Of a DNA stretch of 64,000 bases, positions 3,737 through 60,160 are shown piece after piece. A program made the position numbers and the translations under genes. The stretch comes from Arenicola marina (lineage: Eukaryota; Annelida; Polychaeta; Arenicolidae), in NCBI GenBank assembly GCA_964019135.1, contig CAXHSH010000664.1, positions 62,001 through 126,000 on the forward strand. Direction: 5' to 3'. The notes beneath the pieces are model-generated. The model made no database searches. It was not told the origin of the DNA and saw only the letters and a program-made list of their open reading frames with translations. How positions within the stretch are numbered: position 1 is the first letter of the stretch; every line of letters starts with the position of its first letter.

Positions 3737-3773
3737 CGTGTCTCCCGCATTGTTTCGGCAGACAACTGTGGAA

Positions 3774-4581: not shown

Positions 4582-4584
4582 ACG

Positions 4585-5667: not shown

Positions 5668-5753
5668 GCCCAGTAGCAGCATATATAAATAGTTGTGAAA
5701 GCATGACAACTACAATAGTCGTCACTGAGCGATACACACACGTCGCACCCAAA

Positions 5754-6236: not shown

Positions 6237-6266
6237 ATACGAGAACAGTCGTGCGGACTGTTTCAG

Positions 6267-7020: not shown

Positions 7021-7042
7021 CTACTAGAGATATATTTACGAT

Positions 7043-8614: not shown

Positions 8615-8640
8615 ATTGTCATGTATAATAATATGATATG

Positions 8641-21205: not shown

Positions 21206-21264
21206 GTAGCACACCATCTTCCAACATTACTGTCCAAGTGTAATGCTGGAAGATGGTGTGTTAC
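21206..21264. repeat. Hairpin at a satellite orientation switch (copy 1)
   Basis: Two arms of about 25 nt (21206-21230 and 21239-21264) form an inverted repeat around CACCATCTTCCAACATTAC with an 8-nt loop. The satellite runs in opposite directions on either side, so this is the mirror point. Confidence 0.85.
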
Positions 21265-22766: not shown

Positions 22767-22825
22767 GTAGCACACCATCTTCCAACATTACTGTCCAAGT
22801 GTAATGCTGGAAGATGGTGTGTTAC
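22767..22825. repeat. Hairpin at a satellite orientation switch (copy 2)
   Basis: Essentially the same sequence as 21206-21264, 1,561 bp further on, again at the point where the array flips from antisense to sense orientation. Single-arm copies occur near 20473 and 21704. Confidence 0.85.
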
Positions 22826-25800: not shown

Positions 25801-28800
25801 AAAAGCGCGTGTTTTGAGTAGCATATCGGTTGTACCGAGTGTTTTTGTTAATAAAATGATCGAATCATGTCTGTTTGTGTTGTATATCGCTAAAGCCGAG
25901 TGATTTGTACAGGATGTCGCTATAACTGAGTGTTGGGTGAAGTATATCCCTAAATACGAATGTTTATAGTAGTATGTCCCTAAAAGCGAGTGTTTTGAGC
26001 AGCATTTCGGTAGAACCGAGTGTTTTGGTTATTAAAATGATCGAACCATGTGTGTTTGTGTTGTATATCGCTAAAGCCGAGTGATTTGTAGAGTATGCCG
26101 CTATAACTAAGTGTTTAATGGAGTATATCCCTAAAAGCGAGTCTTTTGAGTAGTATATAATTAAAACCGAGTTTGTTGTAGAGTATGTCGCTATTACCGA
26201 GTGTTTTGTACAGTATGTCCTCACAACTGAGTGCTTCGTGTAGTATATCCATAAAAGCGAGTGTTTTGAGTAGCATATCGGTAGAACCGAGTGTTTTGGT
26301 CAAGAAAATGATCGAATCATGTCTGTTTGTGTTGTATATCGCTAAAGCAGCGTGATTTGTACAGGATGTCGCTATAACTGAGTGTTGGGTGAAGTATATC
26401 CCTCAAAACGAGTGTTTTGAATAATATATCGCTAAAGCCGAGTGTGTTTTGTGCAGTATGTCGCTATAACCGAGTGTTTTGCGTAGTTAGTCACTAAATC
26501 CGAGTGTTTTGAGCAGTATATCGCTCGTACCGAGTGTTTCGGGAAATGGAATACTGGAATCTGGTGTGCTTCCCTAGCATGTCGCTCAAACCGAGTGTTT
26601 TTGTACAATATTTCGCTATAACCGAGTGTTTTTAACAGTATATCGCTATAATTGAGTGTTATATGTAGTAAATCCTTAAAACAGATTGCTTAGAGTAGTA
26701 TATCGTTAGAACCGAGTGTTTTGGTTAATAAAATGATCGAATCATGTCTGTTTGTGTTGTATATGGCTAAAGGCGAGTGATTTGTAGAGAATGCCGCTAT
26801 AACTAAGTGTTTGATGTAGTATATCCCTAAAAGCGAGCGTTTTGAGTAGTATATCGTTAAAACTAAGTGTTTGATGTTGTAGAGTATGTCACTATTACTG
26901 AGTATTTTTTACAGTATATCGCTATAACCGAGTGTTATGTGTAGTAAATCCTTAAAACAGAGTGTTTTGAGTATTATATCGTTAGAACCGAGTGTTTTGG
27001 TTAATAAAATGATCGAATCATCTGTGTTTGTGTTGTATATCGCTAAAGCCGATTGATTTGTAGAGTATGCCGCTATAACTAAGTGTTTGATGTTGTATAT
27101 GCCTAAAAGCGAAGGTTTTAGTTGTATGTCCCTAAAAGCGAGTCTTTTGAATAGTATATCGCTAAAACCGAGTGTGGTTTGAGCAGTATGTCGCTATAAC
27201 CGAATGTTTTGTGTAGTATGTACCTAACACCGGGTGTTTTTAGCAGTATATCGCTTGTACTGAGTGTTTTGCTTAATAAAATGATCGAATCATGTCTGTT
27301 TGTGTTGTATATCGCTAAAGCCGAGTGATTTGGACAGGATGTCGCTATAACTGAGTGTTGGGTGAAGTATATCCCTAAAAGCGAATGTTTTTAGTAGTAT
27401 GTCCCCAGAAGCGAGTGTTTTGAGCAGTATATCGGTAGAACCGAGTGTTTTGGTTAATAAAATGAACGAACCATCTGTGTTTGTGTTGTATATCGCTAAA
27501 GCTGAGTGATTTGTGTTGTATATCGCTAAAGCTGAGTGATTTGTAGAGTATGCCGCTATAACTAAGTTTTTAATGAAGTATATCCCTAAAAGCGAGTGTT
27601 TTGATTAGTATATAATTAAAACCGGGTGTGTTGTAGAGTATGTCGCTATTACCGAGTATTTTGTACAGTATATCCGTATAACTGAGTGCTTCGTGTAGTA
27701 TATCCCTAAAAGGGAGTGTTTTGAGTAGCATATCGGTAGAACCGAGTGTTTTGGTCACGAAATGATCGAATCATGTTTGTTTGTGTTGTATATCACTAAA
27801 GCCGTGTGTTTTATACCGTATGTCGCTAGACCTGAGAGTTTGGTGTAGTATATCCCTAAAAGCGAGTGTTTTGAATAGTATATCGCAAAAACCGAGTGTG
27901 GTTTGTGCAGTATGTCGCTATAACCGAATGTTTTGTGTAGTATGTACCTAACACCGTGTGTTTTTAGCAGTATATCGCTTGTACCGAGTGTTTTGCTTAA
28001 TAAAATGATCGAATCATGTCTGTTTGTGTTGTATATCGCTAAAGACGAGTGATTTGTACAGGATGTCGCTATAACTGAGTGTTGGGTGAAGTATATCCCT
28101 AAAAGCGAATGTTTTTAGTAGTATGTCCCTAAAAGCGAATGTTTTAGGCAGTATATCGGCGGAACCGAGTGTGTTGATTAATAAAGTAATCGAACCATGT
28201 GTGTTTGTCTTGTATAAAGCTAAAGCCGAGTGATTTGTGGAGTATGCCGCTATAACTAAGTGTTTAATGGGGTATATCCCTAAAAGCGAGTGTTTTGAGT
28301 AGTATATTAATAAAATCGAGTGTGTTGTAGAGTATGTCGCTATTACCGAGTGTTTTGTCCAGTATATCCCTATAACCGAGTGCTTCGTGTAGTAAATCCC
28401 TAAAAGCGAGTGTTTTGAGTAGCATATCGGTAGAACCGAGTGTTTTGCTTAATAAAATGATCGAACCATGTCTGTTTGTGTTGTATATCGCTAAAGGCGA
28501 GTGATTTGTAGAGAATGCCGCTATAACTAAGTGTTTGATGTAGTATATCCCTAAAAGCGAGCGTTTTGAGTAGTATATCGTTAAAACTAAGTGTTTGATT
28601 GTGTAGAGTATGTCACTATTACTGAGGATTTTTTACAGTATATCGCTAAAACCGAGTGTTATGTGTAGTAAATCCTTAAAACAGAGTGTTTTGAGTAGTA
28701 TATCGTTAGAACCGAGTGTTTTGGTTAATAAAATGATCGAATCATCTGTCTTTGTGTTGTATATCGCTAAAGCCGATTGATTTGTAGAGTATGCCGCTAT

Positions 28801-29511
28801 AACTAAGTGTTTGATGTTGTATATGCCTAAAAGCGAAGGTTTTAGTTGTATGTCCCTAAAAGCGAGTCTTTTGAATAGTATATCGCTAAAACCGAGTGTG
28901 GTTTGAGCAGTATGTCGCTATAACCGAATGTTTTGTGTAGTATGTACCTAACACCGGGTGTTTTTAGCAGTATATCGCTTGTACTGAGTGTTTTGCTTAA
29001 TAAAATGATCGAATCATGTCTGTTTGTGTTGTATATCGCTAAAGCCGAGTGATTTGGACAGGATGTCGCTAAAACTGAGTGTTGGGTGATTTGATTTGAT
29101 TGGGGCTTAACGGCACTTTCAGCCTGGAAGGCTATATCGTGCCATATTGGTCAATATTAGTCAATATTAAAACCCTGAAAATCAATACATGTGATATGAA
29201 TAAAACCATGAATGCAGTCTTTGTGGAATCCCATAGATCAATAAAACCCTGAGGATATCAAGTAATATCATTGATCAGTTCGTCATAAAACCATGAAAGT
29301 GAAGAATGGTGTAACGATCAAGACAACAAATTGTCAGAATATAAAACCATGAGTTGGTTTTTAAAACCAAACTTTTGAGATTAATAATTACAGCAAAATG
29401 CACTGTTTGGCAGTAAACGTTGAATATATCATATGCATTTGACTAGATTTATTGTAGATAAATGATCTAAAATCGTTTGCACGGTTTGGCTGTAAAAGTT
29501 GACTAGATATA

Positions 29512-40565: not shown

Positions 40566-43500
40566 ATGCAGCGTAAAAGCGAAAACGCTGTGGAAAGTTC
40601 TCATATTTTAAAGTTTACTTTCGACGCTGATTCACACGATTCACATATTATTGTTGCGGCTGTCCAGGCGTCATTGCGTGATCGGACTTACGCCGTAAAA
40701 GTAGGTTGAACCATTTTATTTTCTTGTTGCAGCCTGAACATAGTAAATGATATTTATACCAGACTACCTGCTCGTTAATTGCCTATTCTCCGTGAGTAAT
40801 ATTAAGAGAAACCTAAGTCATAATAAGTTATTGTTTCTGGAGTGTACTCCAAATTTATCGATAAGTATTTACCGCAGTCCGCCCTATTATCGCCCAGGCC
40901 GTTTCCCGAGACTGAGAGTGCATACCTGTACATGAGGGGGGCGGGGGGGGGGGGGGGGTACGCTTTATTCCCAGGTCAATATGAATCAAATGACGTGAAG
41001 AACTGCCACGATTAATGAAAATCATATTGATAATGATGGTCGGTTAATATCCAATTCCAAGTTCACGAAGAATTATTTTCCTCATTTCCATTTCATGGAA
41101 AATATTAGTCTACACCTTACATGTGATGGCAAGGGGCATTGTGTTCCACCCCTTCCATTGTATACATGCAGGAAGTTCTCCATTAATTTCATTGTGACCT
41201 GGGAATAAAGCGTAACCCCCACGTCACATACCCACCCATGAGGCCACGTCTGAGAGAATGATGTCAACAGATTTTCCATTGACACTAACTGTGATATATG
41301 CTGTGATGCTAAATATTATATGACTTAATATTGATACAATTACATTACATTGTTTGTACCTGATAAGGGAGCTGAGATAATTAGATTTATGTATTATTAT
41401 ATTTACTTTTTTTTCTTGCAAGGTACACTTGAATGAATCGCACGGTGTAGACTCGAGCACTTGTGACTGCCCACTTGGCAAGTTTGAATGCCATCATGTT
41501 GCTGCAACATTGCTCTTTGGGTTAGTTCAATTGTAATTGCCAACCTAATAATTATAAGCCTACTATATTTGATTATAATTATGTTGAATAATCTGATGTG
41601 CTAAAATTTGTATTTCCACAGTATACTATAAATATATTACTTCATATGACCGGTAGTAAGCATTTTAATCATATAATTGTTAAAGAAATAAATTGTTTAT
41701 ATAGATAATGAATAATAATTCAAGCTAAGGCTTTTGTACTTTTAACACATGTTTTCTAGCTTTATATATATTATATATACGCTATACACATCAGATTATT
41801 CTTGTGGATTGTGAGTTGCAGTCAGACTTAAGGCTGGTTTGACTTATTAACTCTCTGCAATGCTAGGCAAGAACAAAATTATTTTCACTTACATTGTTAG
41901 CCATAAGATTTTTGTAACATGGGTCTATTCCATACTTTGGCAGGCATCCAGCCCTTGTACAAATTACAGTGACATCCAATATATAGGCACATGCATACAT
42001 CCAATGCAGTAATCAAGTCTGTCACATCAATAAAGCCCTGTGGTTGCCGCCACCGCCTTCTAAATCCACAATTATAAACCCTCCTATACATAATTGTTAT
42101 TTGCAGATATAAGAATGTGACCAAAACAGAAATCAAATGCTCATGGCTAAAAAATCCCAAGTCTAAGATACCGACTAATGTAACAGTTGATGAGATGTAT
42201 CCAGGTGCGTATCCTGCTTACAGGTTGGTGTTTTATATTATTATGACTGAGATTTTGAAATTATGTTCTGGGAAATGAATACCAGTATTGATTGACATAA
42301 GAAACATTTGCTTCTCGATGAAATAAAATAACTTTGCAATATATATTATTTCATTTTATTACAAATTTAGTGGTATTAATTCAGCACAGCTCCATAAATT
42401 TCCACAAGCTGTAGCAGAGCATATTAGTAAGTGTGCCCAAGTGGTCCCAATCTGCAGAAAAAAATGCACACTTCCTGTGGGGTTCAAACTCACTACCCTT
42501 AGCACGAGAGTCAGATGACGTAGCATTGTACCAAAGGAAATTCCATTGGCTCGAGGCCATTGACATCTGAGCCACTCAATCCGCCAGGGCCTGGGCACTC
42601 TACTACATTAGGTAGACTGATAAAGAAAAATGAAAGCATTTCATCATGAACAATATATATCCAGGGCTCTGGATCGTGCTGTCAATGATGATGACAGAAC
42701 ATTTATGCATAACAAGTTGTCAAGTTTGGGACGATTCACTGGTATAACATAATTAGGACAGAGTTTGTGTTATAAGTTGCAATTTTCGTTAAATTTCAAC
42801 ATGAATTTCCTGTTATATTGATTTCGTGTTCAATATTTATTTAAAATAAATTCCTTGCTTTGACCTATATGCCATTGATTACATCTATGTCTTACAGCAT
42901 ATATACTTTGCAAGTGCCAACCGTAACTGTATAATCTATGATTGACTATAATGTTGGAACCTTCTATCTGTAATATATATTTGACTGCATCATGGGCAGA
43001 ATGGATAAGATTTGTTGTTTCATCCTTATCCAGCATTATCTCTTATGTCATCTAGACATAACCACTTGAATTCTGATATGCTTATTTATTACTATTTAGT
43101 ATTTAGGTGGCTATTTGCTGGAAGACTTGAAGTCTTGAAAGCAATGGATAAGTACTTAAACAGCTTCAGGTGTGACTTATTTGAAGATATTCACTGCCTT
43201 TGTATTTAATTATTATAACTACTTTGTGTTGCGTTAAATTGCACAGCTTATTGATTACCTTTACAGGTATACACTGGATACTTAGTCCGGAGCAACAAGG
43301 AGCAACCCCACCCATTCCACTTGTAGAGGACATACTTTGGAGTCAAGAGGTACAGCATTGCGCAGATGAATCGAATGCACTGAGGCGTAAGCTGCTGGTA
43401 TCTCCCGCCTTAGCATCCCAAGTGGCAGCCTCCTCTACCGGCCAAAGAAACAACCATGTGTGGGCGGGACTTCGAAAGATGCGTTTCACAGCATCAAATT

Positions 43501-44721
43501 TTTGGGATCTTCTCAGAGCATATAGAACAAACAGGTTGGTAACATGGACTCTGAAATCTTAAATAACTGTAATGATACAAGAACTCCAGGTTGTGATATA
43601 CAATGTTTATTTGGGGCTGTCAGTAACAAATAGTACCAATGAATATTCATATTATTACAATAACCATAATGGAAATGATACCATACATATGTAGCACTTT
43701 CTTATTTCGCTATTACTCTGAGAAGTTGTTCTTATACTGAAATATTAAAACGTGATTATTTATTTGTGTTCACCAAATCCATTTACTTTGGTTAAAAACC
43801 ATTTCAAACTAATATTCGCAGATTTCCTGCTTCGCTGAGGCGCAAACTGGTATCTCCATATAACTTGGAAACTGTTCGGAGCATCGCATGGGGAGTTACC
43901 CATGAAGAGACTGCTATTCAGCAGTATTCCGCTATGGGCGCCCAGGTAGAAAGCACTGGTATGTTTATTTGTATTTACTATTTGAGGTGTGACATTTTAT
44001 ACCTTCTTAACAAATTTTATAACTCTTACAATTACGTACAATATTTCTTCGTTGCATGTATTTTACGTGACACTATGCACACAGAAAGGCGACAGCTTCG
44101 AAATATATTTTTAAATATAAAGTTAATACACGTATACGCGACGTATAATTGAAGCTCTGTAGTTAATTTGACTGTCTTCCTGTGTACATACATTTATCAA
44201 TATTTTGTCTATGCGACACTATGCTTTTAGGATTATGGCTGCACGAATCTGGAGTGCTGGGTGCTTCCCCTGACGGCATAGTGGTTAGCCCACCCAATAT
44301 TGCAGACGTCATCTGTTATGATCCAAAGGCGACTCTTACTCCGCACCTGATTGAGGTCAAATGCCCTTACTCCGCACGAGATATGGCGATCATGGATGCT
44401 GTTTCTACCCTGAAAGGTTTTTTTTTGCGTACGTTAAAAGATTTGTTTTAACCTTTTAGAAGACACTTTTGTAAAGTAAAATGTCCACGGTATCATTCAT
44501 TTAACAATATATGGTGTTTTTCTCTGACATGTTTCAACTTTCGCTATTATTTAATATCACTGTTTCTTCGCAGATATGCAGGACAACCAACTGCGCCTCA
44601 ACACTTCACACGCTTACTACCATCAAGCGCAGGGACTGATGCATATCGCGGTGGGAGCCTGCCTGGACTTCATCATATGGACAACCAAGGATATGAAAGT
44701 GCTGTGGATTCCTCGAGATCC
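40566..44721 (+). CDS. SWIM zinc finger + YqaJ (lambda-exonuclease-like) nuclease gene, exons 1-8 up to the transposon
   Basis: Exons at 40566-40700, 41423-41520, 42107-42223, 42665-42741, 43267-43534, 43822-43958, 44231-44416 and 44574-44721 join in matching phase with GT-AG borders. With the tail at 55531-55603 they give 412 residues. Residues 46-78 form a SWIM finger (TCDCPLGKFECHH). The PDDEXK core has WGVTHEE, LGASPDG and LIEVKCP (the D and E-x-K metal ligands), then YYHQAQG. Such proteins are multicopy in marine invertebrates and probably act on DNA ends; substrate unknown. The gene is cut in its last exon by the 44722-55528 transposon, so this allele would end two codons into the insertion. 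Confidence 0.85.
42460..42600 (-). mobile_element. Possible tRNA-derived SINE in an intron
   Basis: On the minus strand, GAGTGGCTCAGATG resembles a pol III A box. About 90 bp on, AGTTTGAACCCCAC resembles a B box. The spacing is too long for a plain tRNA, so a diverged SINE is more likely. No clean tail is seen. Confidence 0.35.
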
Positions 44722-44744
44722 CCCTTAAGAAAATTCACTATAGT
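44722..44744 (+). repeat. Left terminal inverted repeat of the transposon
   Basis: Starts CCCTTAAG and pairs with the right end at 55506-55528. The border is fixed by the interrupted exon. Confidence 0.85.
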
Positions 44745-45372
44745 AATATTATAGTTATACCATAATAGTACAATACTAATGCAATAATACTATAGTAATA
44801 CTATGGTCAGTATAATATTACTATAATATGATCATAGTCTCTGTCTGACTACTATAGTATTACTACAATATTACTATTGTAGAACTATTATTATCATAGT
44901 ACTACTATGATATCACTACAGCATCTATAGTGTTACTATAGTCAGCACAATATTACTATGATATTACCATAGTCACATTCTGAATACTATAGTATCACTA
45001 TAGTGAGCATAATATTACTATAGTCACTATCTGACTACTATAATATTACTATAGTGAGCATAATATTACTACAGTTATACTATCTGGTTACTGTAGTATT
45101 ACCACAATATTATGTCTAGAAATCATAGTACTATAGTCGGAAGTAATTTTTTTTTACAGTAATTCCATGTCATCACTAAAGCACTACTATAGTCAGTCAG
45201 TATAATATTACTATAATAGAACTAGTCACTTTCTGACTACTATACTATTTACTATAATATTGTTCGGAAATCACATAGTACTATAGTAAAACTACTATTA
45301 TTAAAGTAATACTGATATCACTACAGCATTCCTATAGAGGGAAGCTAGAGTAAATAGGTGGTTACTATAGTT
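44736..45372. repeat. Left subterminal repeat array (ACTATAGTA type)
   Basis: Dozens of variants of ACTATAGTAATATTACTATA, largely self-complementary, in both orientations. In plant CACTA elements comparable subterminal repeats are bound by the TNPA-type protein. Here the role is inferred. Confidence 0.85.
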
Positions 45373-45655
45373 CACTATAGTGCAAAATCATTGTTGATCG
45401 CAGCAATGAAACGTAAGAATGAGTTTGTCACGTTACTTCTTTATTTGACACATATATAGCTCCGAAAAATGTTGTTTATCATGCAGAAAGACAGCATTTC
45501 ATTACCCAGCTTCAAATAGCTCAAACATTTCTCAGTACAACTTAAACCTTCACACATAACCATTTAACTTCACTCACTTAGTATATCAAAGTCACACAGA
45601 TTTCGATTGAAACCGGCCGCAATGGGTAGAAGATAAATGACATACATGAAATACC
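45373..45655. other. Spacer between left array and transposase stop
   Basis: Probable 3' untranslated region of the minus-strand transposase. Nothing else is seen. Confidence 0.4.
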
Positions 45656-48600
45656 TTAATCAGTCTCGATAGCATTAGGTAGGGGTACAATGAAAGAATT
45701 TCCCTCAACATCAACTCTAACACATTTCCTCGCCAGTGCAGCTGCGCCCCTTGCCGTCGTTCTACCAGACTCAGTCACTCTGGTCATAAACATATTTGAA
45801 GAAATGTTCAATTGCCCATCCCGGATGACCATATCATTGTGAAGTTCTAGCTCTGTCAACAACACAACACCAGTTCGTGGGCAGTCACACCCTCCTTCAC
45901 AGACACATGCACCTTTTACTAGTATAAAATCCTTGACCACACCATATGTTTCATCATCCAACTTTACAGCAGAGTTGTTTCGTTTATACTTTGCATTGTA
46001 CGTCTCTGTATCATAAGTGGTACCATTGGGCGTCATAAACCTATCATAACGTGGGACCACGAGATTTCCAGGAAGTCTAATATTAAAGAATCGTTCCACA
46101 GCAAGTTTTTCTCTCAACCCTAATGCTCTGAACAATGGTACTCCTAAAAGAACAGTTCCATCTTCTAGGGTTGTAGCATTTTTACGCCGTTGGCAGCCTG
46201 CTGTGAAGGAGTCGAACAAACTCAAGACTTCTTTATCAGCCCCAGCCAAACAGGTCTTAGCTTGTTTGGGCAAATCCCTCCACATCAAGAAACGTTTGCA
46301 TATCTGCACCGGTACATGCCTAGTACCATGAAAATATTTCATCAGGGCACCATTATTGCCTTCAAAAACAAAGCAAGACACATTCCAAAGGGGCCCAAAA
46401 TCTCGCACGGAATCCACCAAGTGTGATAACTGGTGTACATTAAATGTAATATGCTCCTTGCCATAGAGTTCTTCCATATAAATTACAAACTTGCACAGCG
46501 CTAAATGAATTTTCTCCAATTTAGCTCTCTCCACCCTGTCCCGCAGAAGGTAATGGATAGCGTACACAAGCAAGAAGAAATGATTGATATATCTCGGAGG
46601 CAGTTGACCATAAAGAACCGGTAACGCGTAGAAGAGTAGAAAGGACCTCCACTCTGACCCTTTCCAAAACCGTCTATCGTCTAGTCGTCTTGGCAGCCTA
46701 GTGATTTCTTTCGGCGGGCGAATATTCTTTAACTTGTTACTTATAAGCTCCGCCTGACGCCCGATATACCACGGCTTGTTGTTATTTGAAGAATCAAACC
46801 AAAGAGATGTCATGTATCGTACAACTCCTAATAAGACACAATGTAAATAATCAGGAACAAAGCCTCTAACAATATTAAAGTACGGAATAAAGTACAACAC
46901 ACTTGGTCCTTTCACGCCATTCACGGCACTTTCGCCAGTGCGCACAGCCTCTAAGGCATCTTGCATTTGACTTTCAGCGGTACGCTTTTCCGGCTCTGGC
47001 ACAGTGAATGGGAAGCACCGCATAAAACCGTCCCCTTTCCTCACCATTTCTCCAGGATGTTTACACCAGTCGCATCCGTGTAAACCATTAAACTGCTTAC
47101 AATTTCTTAACATAGGTCTGGCAACTGCATCCGATGAGCAAATTAATGTATGAACCTTCGTGTGCCTCCGAATAGCATTGTTAGGTCTCCAGAATACACC
47201 ATCAGTTGACAGCTTGACACATTCCTCTGCAAACGGCTGGAGGAAAGTGTCCATTCTCGGCTTTTTAGTCCCAAACCACATTCCAGCAATCAAAACATTT
47301 TCCTTTTGAAGTTTAGGTTTCAATTCATTGATAACCACCTGAATCGGCCAAATAGCGAATTGTGTCGATTTGAACACGGGTACACCATCGCAATTCCACA
47401 GTAACGTTAAGTCATCTTGCGATATGCCATCAGCTCTCATCGCGTCTAACAAAAAATCTCCATTGTGTGGACCAACGATGTCATCGCTGTGCGTCTTTTG
47501 ATTTGCATCTACAAAGTCTTCGTCGTCATAGCGTTCTAAAAGAGATTTAATTTGCTCACCTAGAGCGATCATGAGACAAAAATGCCCTTGTTTAACAATA
47601 TTGGCTACTTGGTATTCTGAACCACAGTCGACACATATGCCATGTTGTATGTTCAGATCATTCGGTAACAGAGACTGACATAAACTGCAGTATAGTCGAA
47701 TATTGAGAACACCATCAGTAGAATTCGTACAATTTGACAGTAAGTACTTAGTGCTTGGGAACGTCCCTGGAAAGAGAACCTCTAATAATGTGAGAAGGTC
47801 TTGAAGCTGGGTTCCGTCGATGTGATGCCGCAGAACATGAGATACCAGTAGCAGCAGACTTTGACCTTTGCTGACTGATGATCCAGGATATAATGGATCA
47901 TCTTCCTGCAAATAAGGAGTTCTTTGATACTTGGAAATATTTCACATAATTTATTGCGAACACAGGTAAAAATTGAAGGAGTCTAAATGATTTAATTAGG
48001 CACTTATCATTTTCTGGTATGATCTACATTACGCAATAAAGCTCATACAAATGAAGCCATATTTGGGTTAATATTTTCCATTATATTATTATTTGCATAT
48101 CTCTGAATTTCTTAAATGATCGCAAAGCTATATCTTGTGCATAAGAAGTAGAACAACACTTCAGTATAGATCATATATCAGTATTCAGACTCTAAAGCCC
48201 TTTGCGAATACCTTAGCATTCGACCACCTACTTGCTTGCTGGAGCAGATTCTGCTGTAAATCATTGCTAAGCTGTTATGCTCAAGTCATTGCTTCATTTG
48301 AATATTTATATTAACATATAACATCGCATACGACTATGCTACTCACCTGAATGTTTTCTCGATGGCCAGCTTCGTTGTCGTCTGAGTTGTCCTCTCCACT
48401 ACCAGCTTCGTTGTCGTGATCGTCAGAGTTGTCCTCTCCATTGTCAGCTACATTGTCCTCTCCATTTCTAGCTTCGTAGTCAGTGTTGTCCTCTGAATTA
48501 TCATCAGTCTCTCCTTCATTCCTTTCTTGTGGCGAAGGTATGTCCCAGTCATAAGTTTGCTGCAACCATATCAGTCCATAAAACATACAAAAATCATGAC

Positions 48601-49584
48601 TTTACAGCATAAAACAAATGGGGATGACAGTTTGGGTTTCTAGGTTTTGATATTCCACTTGCTCATTTTGGTAATTCAGGAAGCATATTTCATTGTCAAG
48701 TTCAGTCAAATCAACAAACAATAGTGCACATGAGCAGAATGGCAAATTTTGTCGACCGGTGGTAATACACATGGGAAAATGTGGAAACTTAAGTTAGAAA
48801 GCACAATGCTAGTTTTTGTTCTTGTGGTGGGTATGCAATGTTGTTACACAAACCAGTGTGTTGTTACTTACATGCGAATGAGCAATGTATTCAGCCTTAA
48901 TTACAGGGGGTATTATTTTGGTTAGGATCTAGCTGTTGTTATCCATCTTGTGGACACTGCTTTCACAAACACATTCAAACAATGATCTTTAGCAAGCTTT
49001 TATCTCACTTCAATTTTCATGAAAGAAAAACAAACAGATATTCCAGTTCAACACCTCTTTTGGCAGAACAGGTATTACTAATAATTCACTGATTTACCAT
49101 ATTTCTCATGTTGTCTGCATCAGCATCACTGTCATCATCTCCATCACAGTCTCTGTTCCCTGAATCATCCATGTCTTCATCCATATTGATACTGTTAAGA
49201 GATTCCTACATGACAAAGCATTAGACAATATGATTAAACATTTAGTCTTAACAGTCAACTTTAAACCAAGGAAAGTTTATTTACCCAGGAAATATTTTAA
49301 TACCACTAAGATATAGTAACATGTAAAGATTTATCACACTTTTGAAACAGTGCAGACCTTGTAAAAATGAAGGCAAAATCAGTCCTCTCCAAAACACTTA
49401 CCATGTTAATACATGGTTGTAAAGCGTCCCTTTGTTCTGAATTCTCTCCACGCATAAACTGCTTCAACCGGGCCCTTTCTGTTGTACGAGGAAATACTAC
49501 GGTATGATCTCTGAGATACTTCTTGTATCTAATCCTCTGACTTTTTCTTCCTGCTGTCTTGCTGGTTTCACTTCCAGATGCCAT
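45656..49584 (-). CDS. EnSpm/tnp2-type transposase, 917 aa, four coding exons
   Basis: Coding exons 49584-49402, 49205-49098, 48559-48347 and 47905-45656 all join in phase 0 with GT-AG borders. Exon 1 is basic, exons 2-3 are very acidic (Asp/Glu/Asn repeats such as GEDNSDD), and exon 4 holds the transposase. Exon 4 starts with a zinc-like C-x2-C...C-x2-C (near residue 240). NCDGVPVF (about 340), SSDAVARPML with FNGLHGCDWCKHPG, VPDYLHCVLLG and FGPLWNVSCFVFEGNNG follow. These fit the tnp2/EnSpm RNase H-fold core (D, D and E-containing blocks). No stop or frameshift is visible. It probably cuts both ends of this element in the nucleus. Confidence 0.87.
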
Positions 49585-51139
49585 TTTCTGACAATAATAT
49601 TTAACAAAAAAAGTGTAAGTTTAACAGACATATATAGATATATAAACAACATTAATATTATTTCAATTTGTAACAGTATTCCACATATAACGTAATACTT
49701 CAGATAAAGATATGAGAGCATGAAGCTATAGTGAATATTGATATAACCAATTAATCTATCTACTATGCGCACAGATCAATTCCTATCCCCGCCATGTGAT
49801 ACCTCATCTGGGGACTATACCATCTTCATTATCCCAGGATCGAGGTTTACATAGTTCTAGTCCAGTTCAGCCAAAATATATTAAAAATATGATTAGTATA
49901 TATAATATACCATCTTATATAGCACATATAGATCTATATAGTGCCATTATAATATAATTATTTTAATCAAACCTGGACATTTCATTATATGATTTTACTA
50001 AACTAATCATTATATTGGCAAAAAAGAATTTTGCCTTTGTATAATACTTATAACTTAGATCTAAGCCTTATATTTTTTATCTTCTAAATTAATATATAGT
50101 CTAGAGTCTAATTAGATATAAACTTAATAAATTACAAGTTTTCTGAAACATTGATTAGAAGCTTAATATCATCTCACTGGGTCTATTAGGGTTTTGTATT
50201 ATTTTGTAGTTTATTATTATATTTTTATATGTTAAATTTGAGTGCATCAGTAGATTCTATCAGGCTGTCTGACTGTCAGGCAATCAGCCGTATAACTTAT
50301 ATATCGCTCAGTCGTTATTTTGAGTCGGCATTAAGCTGCACTGTAATTAACCGCCCAGTTGGTTTATAAGCTTACTTCTAAAAAAACTCACAAAACAATC
50401 CCGTGGAACGTAAGTGCTGCTAGACTGTATAACTTATATTGAAAACGGGACCATTATTTGGTCTATACGTGTAGAATCTACGTTCCAAACCCACAGCACA
50501 GGTTCCTGCCATACATAACTCTAACCAGTTACCAAAGTCACGTGCTACATGGGGAATTTCATTGTCAGCTGATAGGGGTGTTAGCATGTGAAGCAGATCA
50601 AAATAATTTCTTTGTAATTGCCATTGAATATAGATCAGTGAATTATTTGTGCTCAGATACTTACATAATATATATATATATGGTGTCTAGGTGGCAATTA
50701 ATACATATGACATTTGTTAAACGTCCACTATAACATCCGTCACTTACCAGATAAAGATATTCCAACACCCCCCCACAAAGTGATGACCATCCCAAACTAC
50801 GTAGATCTATGACCAATCGCGTACAGTATCCGTCCGCTTAAAAAATCCTAATACTAGCCTACTGCGCAAGTTCGTCTGCTATGTGCCCGATGAAATTATT
50901 TATTTCTTTCATGCGTGTAATTGAACTTACATACAAACATTGTAATAATTAAGGCTCTGAAACATCGATACATTTTGAAAATAAAGAGACACGTGACCTG
51001 CTTACATTCCATTTGGCGCGCACGCGGATGTGGATCTAGATTCTGGATCCAGATTCTAGATCTACTTTCCAAACGGGCGCGAATTTCCAATAGACCAATT
51101 CTTGTGATTTACTATTGACAATATCGGACAGAAATCGAC
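49585..51139. other. AT-rich spacer between divergent genes
   Basis: A 1.55-kb gap between the start codons of the transposase and the BEN gene, presumably holding both promoters and 5' untranslated sequence. A CAG acceptor-like site just before the transposase ATG (near 49589) could end a non-coding first exon. No other gene is seen. Confidence 0.5.
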
Positions 51140-54100
51140 ATGGAGAAACAGTGGGCCTTGTTCGATTTTGCGGACGACACGGTCGAGGTCGATGAGCTAA
51201 CCTTGATCGAAGATTTTGATTCTGATACCGACTACGTGGGAAAAGAAGTTATCGTGCAATGTTTATCTTCCAAGAAGTTGAGGAGATTCGCGGAGAAAGG
51301 GTCGGATGGACGTTATCCTGCCACAGTTCTCAGAATCAGTGGTAAGTCTACAATTTTTATATTTTAGTGGTAAACGTCATCAGATCGCATCAGTTTATTG
51401 TGTGCTTCGCGATGCTTATAAGTAGAAGTGCCGCGACAGAGTTCTGTGGTACGTGTCCCTGGGATAGACACGTTTGCCACATCACAGCCGAAACGGCCAT
51501 GTTAGGCTAGGCTAGATCCATCAGGTTTCTGAATTCATAGAATGAAACATTCGATTTTTCTGCAAATTTTGATATAAACTTCGCCTGGGCTTAGTTTTGG
51601 CGGGAAAGAACTCGATATGCAACTTTATTCATGTTAATGGCAATGGCCAATGCATGCAACAATTTTTAACTTAGCAAGTTAATTAATTTTGAACTATTTT
51701 TGAAACCCATTGTTTGACTGCATAAATGTTACCTTGGTGAGAACCATACTAATATCACAGGACGAAAGGTACACAGCTGCTGTATAATGTGCACATTTTA
51801 ATGACAAGCTTTTTTTTATGCCTTTATTTATGGTAGATCTAGATCTAAGCTTACATAAGAAAGCTACACTTTAGGTTTTGATATTGCATATGTGAACTTT
51901 TTAGAATATAAATAAGTAAGCTTACATGTTTTTAAATCAAAATAATTTTTTTTCAAGAAAAACTTTGCAGCAGAAAAACCTATATTGTGCCCTCTCTGTT
52001 TTGTAGATGATGTCTTACGCCTAAAGCAAGCTGCTGCAGCTATAGTTGACGGGCATGAGTTTGGCTCTCCAAAACATGGACTTGGGAGAGGTTTCCGTCA
52101 GAAGCGCGCAGCACCTCGGCTTGGGACAAGTGACGAGGAAGATGAAATGGATCCATTGCAGCCAAAGGATAAATCAGGGAAGAAAAAAAAAGCTGCGGTG
52201 TCAAAAAGCCAGGCTGCAGCATCTGCAAAAATGGCAGCTATGCTGCAAAAATCTGAGGTAGCTAGTTTCCTCCTTTTTTCTCTGCTTAATTGTGAACCTG
52301 TTCAATTAAGCTTATAGTATATTATTAAGATAAATATATATTGCATGATAACTCACAATATAAGCATGTTACTTCTTACATATTATATTTGCCAAAGTTG
52401 TTAAATATTGGTTCAAGCCCCTCAAGTTATTTTGAATTGTTTGTACATAATTTAATTCCACCATTTTCCAGCATACTCTCCAAATTTCATTTTTATTATA
52501 ATGTTGCTGATTAGATGTAACTCTAATGTTTCAGTCATCGGGTAAGGAAAAAACTGACCAAACCAATGTCAAGGCCATGCAGAAACAGATCACAGAACTG
52601 ACTGCTGCACTGCAAAAAGAAAAAGAGGAAAACGAATCATTGCAGATTAAACTGGATTCTCTCATGGGTAAGAAGACAAAATGGATGGTTGGTTGTATAT
52701 TCAGGATGCTTTAATCACTTTTGTGGTCATATCGGGTCAATGGGACAAAGAAGGGAGAGTGGAGTCATGTCCCCTGGGTAACCTTTACTGTTTGTGAAGA
52801 ACATAGGATTTGTTTCTGCAACCACATATCAGGTGGCAAGAGCATGCATTGAGCACTCTTGCCCTCTGAGTTACCAAGCTGCCTCAAAGACAAACTGAAA
52901 AACATTAGTTTGTTACTGTAGTGCAGATAGTATTTATCACACTGTATAATTTCTCCAGAAGTTATTCACCACTCAATTATAACATTAAAAATTATTTATT
53001 CAATGATTATTTATGTGTGATGTTAAGTCATTAAAATAGGAAGATTGCTTTTTACTTTTCCATTTCTCCAACAGACCTCAGACAAACTGTAAAGACCTTA
53101 AAGAAGGCGGTGGAAACCCTCCAAGACAAACAGATAACACGGAGAACTGAGCCTATGCCAATTACCGGTACACCTAGGCGACCCACTGGAACTGATCCTG
53201 TATCAGTAACTTCATCGCCCAGCACTACACAGGCTGGTCAGGTCATCACTGACGATGGCATGGTGTGTATATATGCAAAGCTAGGGCTTGCTGTCACAGA
53301 TGACATACACAGATAATTTCAATATGAACTCATAATAACATGATTATGATATGAGAGAAGCTAGTTAGATGCATTTATGGCCTGGTTCATGCAAGCAAGC
53401 TCTTTTATTAGTCTCAATGTAGTAAAACTAAATCCAGGCCTCGTACACATTTCCTCATCGTCTGAAGGTGGTTATATATACCAAAAATTCATCGTGAATA
53501 AACGTTAAAGTGACAGGGCTATTTTTTTCACTAGGATGTGAAAATCAGTTGACTAATTAAGTTTGCATTGCAAATTACCTTCTCAGGCGCAGATTGGAAC
53601 CAGCCATGCGGACTAATTAGGTTTGCATTGCAAATTACCTTCTCAGGCGCAGATTGGAACCAGCCATGCGGTGAAGATGCAAATGTCCTCCCTAAAGAGA
53701 TGCAAACACCAGGACTATCGGCGCCTAACAACCGATCTAATGACTGTGGTGTTTAGCCGTGAGGAGATGGCGACGCACTCACTCAGTGGCCAGCGGGCCG
53801 CAAACCAGGAGGTGGGAAAGCCCAAGATTGACCCCGACCGCATGGAGGCAATACGAGGTATAATTGTTATCTGCTTATATCTGACATCCAGTCTTCTATT
53901 CCAGAAACTTGAAGATGTAATGAATAGTATGTTTTACCAAACTGGCACAGAATAAAAACCATCTTGGGATTGTAAGAATCAATTTTGGAAAAAATGCTAT
54001 GTATTTATACATCCTATCTTATTGTGAAGATTTGTTGCACCTTGCTTTCTACACTGCCGTGTTTGTTTCAGAGTATGTCATGGGGATCTTCCCTGATACC

Positions 54101-54199
54101 ACGTATGGCGATATGAACCGCATCATGACAACAAAGTTGAATAACGAGGGAAAAATGATGAAGAGGGAAAAGCCGATGGGGAATACCCCGGCCAACTAA
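51140..54199 (+). CDS. Coiled-coil + BEN-domain protein, 368 aa, six exons
   Basis: Exons 51140-51341, 52007-52257, 52535-52667, 53075-53262, 53653-53857 and 54072-54199 join with consistent phases and GT-AG borders. The N-terminus is acidic, residues about 68-150 are Lys/Ala-rich, 152-215 form a coiled coil (ITELTAALQKEKEENESLQ), and about 275-355 are a BEN domain (LMTVVFSREEMATHSLSGQR ... IDPDRMEAIR ... FPDTTYGDMNRIMTTKLNNE). BEN domains bind DNA, often palindromic sites. It lies inside the transposon, divergent from the transposase, so a TNPA-like role on the subterminal repeats is inferred. AATAAA at 54449-54454 may end the transcript. Confidence 0.85.
53551..53670. repeat. 60-bp tandem duplication spanning a splice acceptor of the BEN gene
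   Basis: 53551-53610 and 53611-53670 differ at one base. Each contains TTCTCAGGCGCAG followed by the start of exon 5, so the acceptor exists twice. Only the second copy leads into the full exon. Confidence 0.9.
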
Positions 54200-54647
54200 G
54201 TTAACACGTCAGTTTTACTGTTTATGCCCCTACTTATATGTTTAAGGCCTAATTTACCTTATAAAATCCATCATTAGTTAACTTTGACTAACCTACCGTT
54301 GACTGTTTTTGTGTCATATTATCATTTAGGAAATGTTTTATCTTAATTAATCACTTATATACCGGTAATACATTTTATCTTCTCACAAGTATGCCTCATG
54401 GTATTAGTGCTACGTGGTAACCAAACATGACATGTAATATTTCAATTGAATAAATTACGTCATTAAAGTAAATTCCTTTGTTTAAATTGTATTGTCTTTA
54501 ATCCGCAAGCTATGTATATAGTAGCTGAATGTGCATGGATCGAGCTTCCACATGCTTCTTACAGTTTGAAGTAAGTGATTTACGTTATATGCAAATCAGC
54601 ATTGGCTGGTGAATATTCAAGGATGTATGTATAGCGCCATAGAAAAG
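54200..54647. other. 3' flank of the BEN gene
   Basis: AT-rich sequence with a poly(A) signal near 54450 and no further gene before the right repeat array. Confidence 0.5.
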
Positions 54648-55505
54648 CTGAAATATAGTATAATTAAGTGTGATGGAATTCCAGTATGATATTATATTCT
54701 GACAGGATATAGTTGAACTATAGTCATACTATGACATAATCAACTATAGTATAACAGTAGTGCCACTAATATTACTATAGTATAACTACAATATTACTAT
54801 AGTATAACTGCAGTAGTACCACAAACATTACTGTAGTAAAACCATAGTATTACTGTAGTCAAAGTATAGTATTACTGTAGTCAAACTATGGTATTACTGT
54901 AGTAAAACTATAGTATTGCTGTAGTAAAACTATAGCAAACTATGGTATTACTGTAGTCAAACTATAGTATTACTGTAGTCAAACTATGATATTACTGTAG
55001 TAAAACTATAGTATTACCGTAGTAAAACTACAGTAATTTTGACTATAGTAATTTTGTGGTATTTTGGCCACTGTAGTATTTTGTACTACAGTAAAACTAT
55101 AGTATTACTGTAGTAAAACTATAGCAAACTATAGTATTACTGTAGTAAAACTATAGTATTACTGTAGTAAAACTATAGCAAACTATAGTATTACTGTAGT
55201 AAAACTATAGTATTACTGTAGTCAAACTATGATATTACTGTAGTAAAACTATAGTATTACCGTAGTAAAATTACAGTAATTTTGACTATAGTATTTTTGT
55301 GGTATTTTGGCCACTGTAGTATTTTGTACTACAGTAAAACTATAGTATTACTGCAGTAAAACTATAGCAAACTATAGTATTACTGTAGTAAAACTATAGT
55401 ATTACTGTAGTAAAACTATGGTATTACTGTAGTACAAAATACTACAGTGGCCAAAATACCACAAAAATACTATAGTCAAAATTACTATAGTTTTATCATA
55501 GTTAC
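54648..55505. repeat. Right subterminal repeat array with internal palindrome
   Basis: Many units of ACTGTAGTAAAACTATAGTA type. Blocks containing TTTTGTGGTATTTTGGCCAC occur at about 55055 and 55294 in one orientation and at about 55451 inverted. The right end can therefore fold into a large hairpin. It is longer and more regular than the left array. Confidence 0.85.
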
Positions 55506-55528
55506 ACTGTAGTAAATTTTTATAAGGG
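55506..55528 (-). repeat. Right terminal inverted repeat of the transposon
   Basis: Reverse complement starts CCCTTATA. Four mismatches to the left end over 23 bases. Confidence 0.85.
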
Positions 55529-55530
55529 CC

Positions 55531-55603
55531 GGCATTGGCACCAAACATCTCAAGACTAATTGAGTTGTACTTCAACAAATTCATCCCAATGGTACTCGCT
55601 TAA
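55531..55603 (+). CDS. SWIM-YqaJ gene, end of last exon beyond the transposon
   Basis: Leaving out 44722-55528 and one CC, the codon run continues GAT CCG GCA TTG GCA. It encodes ALAPNISRLIELYFNKFI and then PMVLA with a TAA at 55601-55603. The C-terminal I-x-x-L-x-x-Y-F-x-x-F-I-P pattern is what the nuclease family has at its end, which is good evidence for the insertion and its exact borders. Confidence 0.85.
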
Positions 55604-56385
55604 GATGAGCTTGTAATGTTTAAAGCCTGATGAAGAATTTCGATCTGTAGCCGCGTGAAATCCGATTGTGTAAAACGAAAAGCGTATTGAGAATCACGAA
55701 TAAGTCTATATGATAAAAAAATAAACAATAATGAATCTTGAAACGCCTTTATTTTGTCCTTTTTTTTAGCAATTCAAAAGTACATGTCCGCATTTCACAT
55801 CATGAACCTCGAGCATAACATACTCCTCGTCATAAACACCTGGTATATAGACACTTGCATTCCATGGACATGTGCAACGGGATTCGAATAGCCTAAGTGC
55901 AAGAATACGAATCACTGATTTCTTTGAGCAACGGTGCCTGCAGGTTAACAAGACAGCAGCAAACCTGAAATATCTTTGTTGCAAAGGGTCGTAAATTGGC
56001 AGGGATATGAGATAAAATTTCAAAAAAATTTAGTCGCTCGTTCGCCCGCTCAACATGTTTTTGTGCTCTGGCTATTTTTCGACAAAGTTGGGCTTCAACC
56101 GTAAACTGCTATTTCTGGGACAAAAAAGGAGGTCTGTTTAGGCTAACGCCAGATGGTAACTTGTTGAAAATTGCAAACCCTTTGTCGGCCAAGATTAGAT
56201 CTCCCGGTTGCAACCCTTTCAGAAATTCACTATGCTTAATTACTGCGATGTCGGAAGTGGAGCCTGGGTACAATTTACTCGAATATACGATTGTTGCATT
56301 GGGCGCAACACCAGTAACGGTTTTAAGGGTGTGTCTACTCTTGTAGGAACTAAAAGATGCTGCCTGCATATCTAGTCTAGATGGA

Positions 56386-56570
56386 ATGGAATATTGGTGT
56401 TTTAGGCCACTTTTGTGCACATACAGGCTAAATTGGGCCAAGGAACCTCCCGAGACGATGAAGGATGAAGGAATGAAACATGCCCCAGATTAGGTGCCCG
56501 AGCCCGGATTCGAACCCAGGACCTATTGATCTGCGGTCTAGTGCGCTAACCACTACACCAGGGAGGCCCC
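56386..56570 (-). mobile_element. tRNA-derived SINE with 15-bp target duplication
   Basis: TCTAGTCTAGATGGA flanks it on both sides (56371-56385 and 56571-56585). The head, read on the minus strand, has a pol III A box (TGGTGTAGTGGTTAGCGC) and B box (GGTTCGAATCC) at tRNA spacing. The body and tail match 40222-40325. It lies in the reading frame of the THAP transposase gene and explains its split. Confidence 0.9.
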
Positions 56571-58691
56571 TCTAGTCTAGATGGAACGTCTTGGGTAATT
56601 TCGGTAGCATCAATTACTACTCTCGCACTTACAAAGTCCACAAAGGCGGCTGGCATAGTTCCTTTGCATTTTGCTTGCGAGGGAATACCCAGACCGATGA
56701 TGCCTTCAAATAAGAGTTCATGCAAAGCACAAAGTAAAGTATTAAACACATTTCTAGCCGTGGTTGGACTGGCGCAAAAGCGATGAGCGAGGTTCAGAAC
56801 CCTAAAATTCAATCGAAGTCTCATCAGCGTAATTAGTAACTGATCTTCTAGTGTGATATTTCTCACAGACCAACCTAAATAATATTTCAAATTAAATCGT
56901 CGCAGTGTATCGACTAATACACAAAAGATGTCATATGGAATGGAGGTATACAACAGCATCTGAAAAGCAAAAAAAAGCATAATAACTCAGTTATACACTT
57001 GTGATATTTTCCCTGACCATTTGGTCTGGGTGATATAAAGGATATAATTAGGTGTTTTAGGAACTATGACTACTTGAATGATGAGTCCATAATTCCCTAA
57101 AGTAATATCGTGAGAATGAGCGGTATAAAACTATTTATCCTTTGTGTAACATGGTTAGAGAACTGTGTGCAACTAATAAGTTCCTCATCTACATTAATAA
57201 CTATGTAATCTAAAACAGAGAAGTAACATTTAGTTAGCCCTGAAGAACCCAGGCCTCGCTACCGCTCGGCCAGGGTCCTGAAGTGCAGCCTGCAAATCCT
57301 CAGCGATTTGAAACCCCTCCACTTTAATCTGACTAGTGTCACTTTTTGGGTGAATAGCACGTCCAATCCTTATTATATTTGAATTCTACATACCTTAAAC
57401 TATCTATTTACGTATAGTTTGTTTCTTTGAAGAACTGTTGATGTCCACAATACCGGCGATATTCCGCATTTCATTCGTAACATGCGCGCAGCCATTCGAA
57501 GTGACAACACTCACTTTTGCAGGAGATTCCTTTATATCACATATTGAGAATGGTTGCGGCTTCCCCAAACTCCTAGCTTTGAGTTCATTTTCCAGTTCAG
57601 ACACTCTCGCTTTTAGCTCTTCAATGTTATCAGCAAGATTTTGTGATATCAAATCAATATGTACATCAGCAGCAGAAGCGGAATCCACAGTTAGCTTGTC
57701 CGAGGATTCAGAGTAGTTGACAACCATTTGTGCAGCACACGATGAGTCATTGTAGTTCTCAGTTAACTGGGCAGGGGCTAATGAGGTGTTGCTGTGGCTT
57801 TCATTCAACCGGGCAATGGATAGATTGTCTTCATATGTTTCTGCAGTACTGACTGTTGATGCATAATTGTGGTCTAGTTCAAGACTCACTGATTCAGTGT
57901 CACACCTAAAGTAAAAAAGAAAAGATAATATATATAAAGTCGAAGTCATAAATGCTGTAGACTCACATTACAGCCCATATTTTCCACGAATTTGTCCCGA
58001 TCACTGAACTGACAAAGCAACCCTAGGCAGTTTTAATGATACAAAACTTGTGTGTGTACTGCAGGGTTATTCTTTTGAAGACACACACAATGTAACAAGT
58101 AATAAATAGACTATAAATAGACTATACTAGTATATGTTAGAGAGGTGATCTATAAATACTAATATTGCTCCATTGAGTTTAAAGTAATAAACCCTGGCAA
58201 TCCTAAAGCCATAGCTCTTCTTTATAAACAGTTATTCCATTAAATATAACCTATGAAATTTTCCATATCTTTATCACTGGTTATAGTATTTAGCCTCAAT
58301 TTATCATTTTAAACAGATAGAGAATGATACATTTTAGACTTACTTCAATTGCTTAGATGATGGATTTCCTGTTTGGATGCTGGGAAATACAAATCGTTTC
58401 TTTTCGTTATGTGGAAAGATTGTCGGCCCATTGTTCTTGTCCCCATCGACAAAATGACAGGAGCAAATTCTGTCATAATATTCCACCTTTCGGTCACTTC
58501 TTCTGCAAAATTAGGCAGTCCAGTTACTTTTCCATAACTTTATTTAATCAATTATATTTGTAAGATTTATTTTATATTATCAAAAAAATGTATATTACTA
58601 TTTATCTTTATCGCTCTATATCTTATATTAACTCATATTAGTCCATAGACTATATAGTAGATCTAAATGAGATGACAAATAACATAGCCGG

Positions 58692-58909: not shown

Positions 58910-59459
58910 CTTTCGAATTTCGTTCGAACTTCAGCGTTCAAAATAGTTACACAGTGGAAAGGGTAATACACGTCGCCGGGCAGTGATAACAGATACAACG
59001 GCAGGCACATTATCATTCATAAGCGTATACACCCTGGTTTCAACTGGTCGTTTCTCTCAAAAGGTTCGTACTTTAATCTCTATTTTAAATTTTTCGTGTT
59101 TTGTAAAGGTCAAAAGATATTTTGCATCAAATAAAATATTTTTTCGTGGTAAGGTATTCTCATAATTGTGCCTGATATGAGGCCTTATTGGCAGCCAAAT
59201 TCCATTCTTTCCGTGTTAAAAGATAGCGAAAAAGGTAAAACACGCGTGCGCGATTCGCGATGTCGCCAATATGGCGTTGGTGTCGTTACAACGGTAGACG
59301 AGACAACCGGGCCCTATCAGTGCATGTTTGTGTGCCGTAAACTTTGACCCGGATGTGCAACAGAGCGTGTCGCGCACGCGCACTCGAAACTACGAGGTGG
59401 CTTATTGAAATTTTAGTACGTGGTAACTCAAGCTGACTGGAAATGTTATGTCAATTTTA
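58910..59459. other. 5' flank of the THAP gene, no other gene
   Basis: Contains CpG-rich patches near 59240-59390 (GCGTGTCGCGCACGCGCAC) that may be promoter sequence. Nothing else is supported. Confidence 0.4.
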
Positions 59460-60160
59460 GGTCATTGTACTAACCAAAACACTCGGTTCGATCGACATAG
59501 TACGTAAACACACCCCATTCCAGTATTACACTACCAAATACGCTGGGTTCTAGCGATATACTCTTCAAACCACACGGTTTTAGGAATATGCTACGCAAAA
59601 CATCCGGTTATAGCGACATACTGCATAAAACACTTGGTTCTAGCGATATACTACTCAAAATACTCGGTTTTAGGGACATACTACCCAAACAACTCGGTTA
59701 TAGTGACATACTGTACAAAACACTTGACGTTAGCGATAGGCCTATACAGCACAAACAAGCATGAGTCAATCCCTCTTTTAACCAATGCACTCGGTTATAA
59801 CGATATACTAATCAAAACGCTCTGTTTTAGCGATCTATAACACAAACAAGCATGATTTTATCATTATATTAACCAAAACACTCGCTTCTACCGACATAGT
59901 ACATAGACATACGCGACTCTAGTATTAATCTACAAATCACGCTGGATTCTAGCGATATACTACTCAAACCACACAGTTTTAGGAATATGCTACACAAAAC
60001 ATCCGGTTATAGCGACATACTGCATAAAACACTTGGTTCTAGCGATATACTACTCAAAATACTCGATTTTAGGGATATACTACCAAAAAAACTCGGTTAT
60101 AGTGACATACTGTACAAAACACTTGACGTTAGCGATATACAACACAAACAAGCAGGATTT
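59460..60160. repeat. Dispersed block of the 30-bp satellite (antisense orientation)
   Basis: Units such as AAAACACTTGGTTCTAGCGA + TATACTACTC match the 20-29 kb array. A segment at about 59545-59740 recurs at about 59940-60140. Confidence 0.88.

Follow-up and report, generated by a model that had tools for sequence, protein, structure and literature searches.

The locus described here raises the question of whether an animal transposon of the CACTA superfamily can carry, besides its transposase, a BEN-domain protein as a second working component. The DNA analyzed is a stretch of 64,000 nucleotides from the annelid Arenicola marina (hereafter, the window), in which a first-pass annotation had proposed a complete 10.8-kb EnSpm-like element with inverted ends, a target duplication, subterminal arrays and two divergent genes. 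Our analysis shows that window positions 44722–55528 are a complete two-gene CACTA-superfamily transposon of the animal TRC type, containing a transposase gene and a BEN gene (Table 1). The same pair is found in its other long copies and in two distant transposon families of the same genome, so that the BEN gene appears to be a functional second component and not a passenger carried by chance.

The borders of the element are defined by its ends, its target site and its other copies. Both termini read CCCTTA, so that the element runs from CCC to GGG, and 19 of 23 bases agree between the terminal inverted repeats, a match with a chance, by composition, of about 1e-6. The insertion interrupts a SWIM/YqaJ-like gene. 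When the element and one CC are removed, the YqaJ-like left frame reads through to a natural-looking stop in the right flank, while joins with 0 or 3 bases removed bring a premature stop into that frame. A second left frame is open under the 0-base and 3-base joins, and the empty-site test depends on the YqaJ-like frame. In the frame used, the upstream exon joined to the beginning of the last one matches Pfam YqaJ at 2.6e-3, and the upstream open reading frame alone does so at 0.018, both below the cut-off; the former match supports the chosen frame but stops short of the insertion junction. A SWIM exon of the target gene scores above its Pfam cut-off. The inverted ends, the CC/CC duplication and the empty site thus bear out the proposal of a complete element.

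The CCC termini and 2-bp duplications assign the element to the animal TRC type of CACTA and not to the plant type. Plant-type CACTA elements have CAC or CACTA termini and 3-bp duplications (PMC1636069, PMC12730594), whereas animal TRC elements have CCC termini and 2-bp duplications (DeMarco et al. 2006, PMC1636069). In the window the ends are CCCTT and the duplication is 2 bp. The label EnSpm-like stands at the level of the CMC superfamily, whose signature is present in the transposase, and is refined to the animal TRC type, the ends being not those of plant elements.

The transposase gene has four exons on the minus strand and an intact frame of 917 residues, as first proposed. All eight introns of the two genes are GT-AG, and in the transposase gene the exons have a G+C content of 0.43 compared with 0.34 in the introns. 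A protein search returned 206 transposase homologues among 8000 candidates scored, the best with 43% identity over 99%, in animal hosts such as Glandiceps, Lytechinus, Nymphon, fish and ticks; among the 120 homologues listed, none carries PF10523 in its precomputed domains. The Pfam matches Transposase_21 (1.7e-4) and DUF1258 (1.3e-4) are both under the cut-off. The CMC superfamily signature is a DDE triad with C(2)C and H(3-4)H between the second D and the E (PMC12730594). In exon 4 the corresponding residues, D173, D259, C278/C281, H491/H495 and E515, are invariant in 29/29 aligned sequences, namely the window and 28 homologues chosen from the 120 listed. A structure model of exon 4 (749 residues; predicted local distance difference test score 89.6) was compared with solved structures by Foldseek, and all 45 Protein Data Bank matches at E≤0.001 are RAG, BbRAGL or HzTransib entries, with E down to 6.5e-10. 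Query template-modeling (TM) scores against these RAG-type entries are 0.38–0.45 (0.23 for HzTransib), all below 0.5, with root-mean-square deviations of ~8–12. The matches point to a predicted catalytic core that is RAG1-like, that is, of the RAG/Transib fold. Two trees disagree on the nearest neighbor of the transposase (Glandiceps, support 89, in one; Nymphon, support 87, in the other), and it is not relied on.

The BEN gene is divergent from the transposase gene and encodes, in six plus-strand exons, a protein of 370 residues rather than the 368 first given. The N-terminal domain of the protein has no Pfam name, its middle part by eye resembles a coiled coil, and at the C terminus lies a BEN domain (PF10523, E 2.6e-11, 44 bits against a gathering score of 23.2). 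The closest solved BEN structure is BEND6 (9.2e-8 for this protein and 2.2e-12 for that of family 2, described below). Exons have a G+C content of 0.49 and introns 0.34, and the other two frames contain 20 and 23 stops. A 60-bp tandem duplication doubles the exon-5 acceptor, and the upstream acceptor, if used, would lead to an early stop in the BEN frame. Searches of a large protein database gave no match among 3799 candidates at E≤0.001 and none among 17 at E≤10, and relatives of the BEN protein were therefore taken from the host genome itself; scans of viral and prokaryote contigs found no relative. No strong inverted repeats flank the BEN gene, and a nested insertion was rejected as its origin. 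The first BEN intron contains, at window 51347–51627, a dispersed repeat of ~280 bp with short inverted ends, which occurs at 80–82% in at least about a dozen listed places.

The host genome (867 Mb, 762 contigs) was searched for further copies by scoring the best candidates (40 of 159 for the left end, 40 of 6318 for BEN, 60 of 239 for the transposase), and all counts are accordingly lower bounds. Five places, including the window, match the first 579 bases of the left end at 98–100%, and in a sixth the match covers 301 bases at 99%. At least six long copies were found, and all six contain both genes in the same order. The four read to both ends each have a 2-bp duplication: CC in the window, TG in C9, CA in C225 and GG, within a G run, in C7; the two C11 copies were read without the right end. 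The left end of the C9 copy is CCCCTA. An uninterrupted transposase frame is present in the window and C9, and the frame is broken in the other four copies (C11a, C225, C7 and C11b); the BEN frame is clean in five of the six, the exception being C7. Thus, the BEN gene is present in the long copies and shares the borders of those read completely, as expected of a component of the element. Among the six copies, BEN variants counted against the majority letter comprise 14 replacement changes, including 2 stops, and 13 silent changes where ~3:1 is expected (P 0.007, simple binomial), and all five variants common to at least two copies are silent; transposase variants comprise 40 replacement changes (5 stops) and 15 silent ones (P 0.38, near neutral). 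In these small counts from related copies, BEN replacement changes are below the neutral expectation and those of the transposase are not. Copies on C11, L009/L010 and L017, are interrupted, with 6–8 repeated bases at the breaks, probably by other transposons. Past a C11 copy, at C11:12519536–12560791, a 2809-bp unit that takes in the 3′ part of BEN and, presumably, some of the right array recurs at least 15 more times head to tail, either as a true amplification or as an assembly artefact.

A further 34 places match the left end at 84–93% over up to 426 bases. Sixteen were fetched; 11 of them, then L032, were searched for both genes, and L029, L030, L031 and L033 were left out. In the 9.9 kb fetched at each of the 11, no BEN gene was found, and the right end was not found in several; ten of these places also have no transposase, and L027 has only a tail fragment of one. 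Seven of the 16 are short copies with both ends, 4.3–6.9 kb long, each with a 2-bp duplication and neither gene. These places look like non-autonomous copies that were moved in trans. The pattern named beforehand as contrary, the same ends without a BEN gene and the BEN gene in a context of its own, was thus not seen in the places examined. L034, the one place read of a cluster of four BEN relatives on C1 (70–89% DNA identity), has six recognizable BEN exons, the first with a stop. After them come the right subterminal array and a right end in degenerate form, and the place looks like an ancient element in decay, not like a host gene of its own.

The host genome also contains further TRC-type transposase matches of 32–51% identity, including at least a dozen stop-free open frames of 690 residues or more. 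Three of these lineages were fetched: family 2 (C5, L035), family 3 (C17, L036) and L037. Both families 2 and 3 pair a transposase with a divergent BEN gene on the right-end side, so the pairing extends beyond the element in the window (family 1). Their transposases pass Transposase_21 (9.9e-10 and 4.1e-12), and their BEN domains score above the PF10523 cut-off (1.5e-7, 32 bits; 5.9e-7, 30 bits). The BEN proteins begin with MKYALFDF in families 2 and 3 and with MEKQWALFDF in family 1, and, by eye, an intron divides the BEN domain at nearly the same residue in families 1 and 2. The family 2 element, read from one terminus to the other, is ~11.6 kb long, with CCCTTA at both ends, a GT/GT duplication and start codons ~400 bp apart. 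In a second copy, on C10, the BEN exons lie at the distance expected and show 100% identity over 1101 bases. The right end of families 2 and 3 is CCCTTAT, that of family 3 reading CCCTTATGAAAAAATACC. Transposase identities are 37% between families 1 and 2, 36% between 1 and 3, and 53% between 2 and 3, and in a quick tree of 24 rows, with Shimodaira–Hasegawa-like approximate likelihood-ratio support only, family 1 lies opposite families 2 and 3 across a branch of support 98. On C3, a 61-kb region (31593184–31654199), possibly of nested elements, contains a family-1-like left end, a transposase of another lineage (37%, at 31640608) and a BEN relative of 95% (31650681–31654199).

The subterminal arrays consist of 8-bp palindromes that differ between families. 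In family 1, ACTATAGT occurs 33 times, 13 in the left array and 20 in the right with none between, as against shuffled means of 0.35 and 0.61 (maxima 3 and 4), and ACCATGGT is absent. These arrays, which the first-pass annotation had noted, lie past the 3′ ends of both genes, and the shared promoter region contains no ACTATAGT. In family 2, ACCATGGT occurs 11 times on the left and 26 times on the right, with no ACTATAGT in the 12.9 kb counted, and the right array of family 3 contains 50 copies of ACCATGGT. The two palindromes differ by one changed base per half-site, with the mirror symmetry kept. In addition, the first right-end palindrome begins at base 16 in families 1, 2 and 3, as ACTACAGT, ACCATGGT and ACCATGGT, respectively. 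Recognition of the palindromes by a dimer, probably of the BEN protein, would predict such a symmetric change of both half-sites. BEN domains of host proteins bind short palindromes; that of Insv binds the 8-bp palindrome CCAATTGG as a dimer and requires a dimerizing region (PMC6317261), and ACATGT was selected by the NACC1 BEN domain (PMC7764960). Helical phasing of the arrays was considered and is not relied on. The left array has a 10.5-bp period with P 0.0007 at that period and 0.086 over all periods, and the 11-bp period of the right array belongs to an array built by tandem duplication, those of families 2 and 3 being spaced otherwise.

Taken as a whole, the explanation that we consider probable is that of a recently mobile two-gene TRC transposon whose BEN protein binds the end palindromes and serves the ends or the transposase. 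The CCC/GGG ends are where the transposase would cut, and the BEN protein would dimerize through its putative coiled coil, the dimer then binding the palindromes that fill the ends, ACTATAGT in the window and ACCATGGT in families 2 and 3; the BEN protein is the simplest candidate reader of these arrays. Once bound, it may mark or pair the ends and recruit or stabilize the transposase. In plant En/Spm, TNPA binds subterminal motif arrays, and it is not known to be a BEN protein. The BEN protein would thus fill the job of TNPA through an unrelated domain. The suggestion of an animal counterpart to the plant two-gene system is upheld in its anatomy, by the arrays, the symmetric motif change and the BEN pairing in two more families, and its functional side would follow if the BEN protein acts in this manner.

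Several observations weigh against this explanation. Family 3 has one ACCATGGT outside its array and three ACTATAGT, and no ACCATGGT in the 1350 bp fetched to the left of its transposase, which stop short of the left end. Neither a BEN gene nor ACCATGGT occurs in the 9.9 kb fetched of the fourth lineage, L037, which is interrupted by a long terminal repeat element and contains ACTATAGT twice. Array spacings are unlike between families (11-bp multiples; 23 and 10/13; 12–13 bp), so that helical phasing is not common to them, and palindrome counts are not independent because the arrays have partly grown by tandem duplication. The first-exon similarity of the families 2 and 3 BEN genes to family 1 is weak (E 0.068 and 0.015, in 319 and 323 frames), the BEN gene of C7 is broken by two stops and a deletion, and upstream of the L034 relative ~6 kb contain no convincing transposase (best E 0.14). 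Finally, the choice of the BEN protein over the transposase as palindrome reader is one that we infer.

That choice is reversed in the alternative that survives best, in which the BEN protein is an antagonist of chromatin or silencing, or a self-repressor, that keeps the element genes expressed, while the transposase itself reads the palindromes. BEN proteins are boundary and co-regulatory factors (PMC6317261, PMC11472053), and TET/JBP genes in fungal CACTA-related elements are thought to counter methylation (PMC12730594), so such a role would have parallels. Yet a factor acting on expression fits poorly with arrays that lie past both genes and leave the shared promoter region free of ACTATAGT, and reading by the transposase fits poorly with palindromes that change symmetrically while the terminal CCCTTAT stays constant; we regard this alternative as unlikely. 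Somewhat less likely again is that BEN genes have been exchanged between transposon families with no fixed role in transposition. The distance between family 1 and families 2/3 in the transposase tree would suit such exchange, for which the fungal TET/JBP genes are a precedent (PMC12730594), but the orientation of the BEN gene, the side of the element that it occupies and its first exon are alike between families, and the family 2 BEN-domain intron lies, by eye, at about the family 1 residue. A single capture of a host BEN gene, which then multiplied along with the element, agrees with the six near-identical copies, the relatives on C1 and the retained spliced structure, but is highly improbable. 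Host capture as the sole explanation was judged unlikely after families 2 and 3, since BEN recurs, divergent and on the right-end side, in two families with 36–37% identical transposases, the C1 relative that was read keeps the right array of the element and a degenerate right end, and the BEN variants of the six copies lean towards silent changes.

A broader form of the two-component explanation, on which we are evenly divided, is that a large branch of animal CACTA (TRC) elements is a two-component system in which a RAG1-fold transposase and a palindrome-reading BEN protein have changed together between families (ACTATAGT and ACCATGGT). The BEN gene would then predate the division of the animal TRC tree into its two halves, so that many unannotated animal elements would carry it and some host BEN genes could descend from it. 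If so, animal CACTA elements gain, beside a transposase of RAG1-like fold, a second component with a DNA-binding fold other than that of plants, and host BEN genes a possible mobile source. The families would also form a natural set of BEN/target pairs from which a recognition code could be approached, and they make a direct test possible, in which palindrome or BEN is swapped between families with excision as the readout.

Comparison with described systems shows where the element departs from them. SmTRC1 has the same CCC termini and 2-bp repeats (in 7 of 14 copies), likewise sits in other repeats and has an internal tandem-repeat region, and encodes a protein with Transposase_21, which the transposase of family 1 matches below the cut-off, but it has several alternatively spliced products, and the accessible part of its description mentions no BEN protein (PMC1636069). 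Spongebob_HMa/EnSpm-4N1_HM of Hydra has CCC ends and a 2-bp duplication; its exact transposase was not found owing to stops and frameshifts, and the accessible text mentions no second gene (PMC4298943). Plant En/Spm, with a tnp2-type transposase, likewise encodes two proteins, there TNPA and TNPD, but has CACTA ends and a single alternatively spliced gene (PMC1636069), in contrast to the two divergent genes here, with arrays downstream of both. The transposase model matches entries of the RAG1/RAG2, ProtoRAG and Transib group at TM below 0.5, and the partner here would be a BEN protein, no RAG2-like gene being seen in the element. Insv, BEND6 and NACC1 share the C-terminal BEN domain but are host genes. 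The fungal TET/JBP elements likewise combine a CMC-type transposon with an accessory chromatin-related gene, which encodes an enzyme instead of a DNA-binding BEN protein, in fungi rather than animals (PMC12730594). In the literature searched (titles and abstract openings, with Repbase and most subscription papers outside), no description of a BEN gene in a CACTA-type element was found.

Table 1. Features of the transposon, in window coordinates
Feature	Position	Strand	Evidence or remark
Whole element, 10807 bp	44722–55528	none	ends, CC/CC duplication, empty site, further copies
Left CC of 2-bp target duplication	44720–44721		
Left terminal inverted repeat CCCTTAAGAAAATTCACTATAGT	44722–44744	+	19/23 match with right end
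Left subterminal array	44737–45381		15 ACTRYAGT, 13 being ACTATAGT
AATAAA past transposase gene	45440–45445	−	
Transposase exon 4, catalytic core (D, D, CxxC, HxxxH, E)	45656–47905	−	splice site, homologues, alignment, predicted structure
Transposase exon 3	48347–48559	−	splice sites
Transposase exon 2	49098–49205	−	splice sites
Transposase exon 1	49402–49584	−	start codon 49584; splice site; N-terminal motif common to some homologues
Divergent region between start codons, 1555 bp	49585–51139		without ACTATAGT
BEN exon 1, N-terminal domain	51140–51341	+	start codon 51140; weakly similar exon in families 2 and 3
BEN exon 2	52007–52257	+	splice sites
BEN exon 3, coiled-coil-like	52535–52667	+	splice sites; heptad-like by eye
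BEN exon 4	53075–53262	+	splice sites
60-bp tandem duplication doubling exon-5 acceptor	53551–53671	+	
BEN exon 5, first part of BEN domain	53647–53857	+	splice sites, Pfam
BEN exon 6, BEN domain end and stop	54072–54199	+	splice site, Pfam
AATAAA past BEN gene	54449–54454	+	
Right subterminal array	54717–55513		45 ACTRYAGT, 20 being ACTATAGT; spacings multiples of 11 bp in 28/44
Right terminal inverted repeat CCCTTATAAAAATTTACTACAGT	55506–55528	−	pairs with left end
Right CC of 2-bp target duplication	55529–55530		

The interrupted SWIM/YqaJ-like gene (window 41429–44721 and 55531–55610) adjoins, tail to tail, an HTH_Tnp_4/DDE_Tnp_4 gene beyond the element (58910–56109), and the target is therefore probably itself a two-gene DNA transposon. 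We take ISL2EU elements to pair such genes, so that the target is presumably ISL2EU-like. The DDE_Tnp_4 gene is apparently split by a tRNA-like short interspersed element at ~56405–56590, bounded, by eye, by CCATCTAGACTAGA repeats; ARAGORN found no tRNA, and an Rfam scan likewise gave no match. Positions 1–9000 contain genes that by eye resemble those of Polinton/Maverick elements, with DNA polymerase, packaging ATPase and integrase-like frames, and a 30-bp unit, GTATATCGCTAAAACCGAGTGTTTTGTGTA, forms long arrays in two blocks, at 20000–29100 and 59450–60160.

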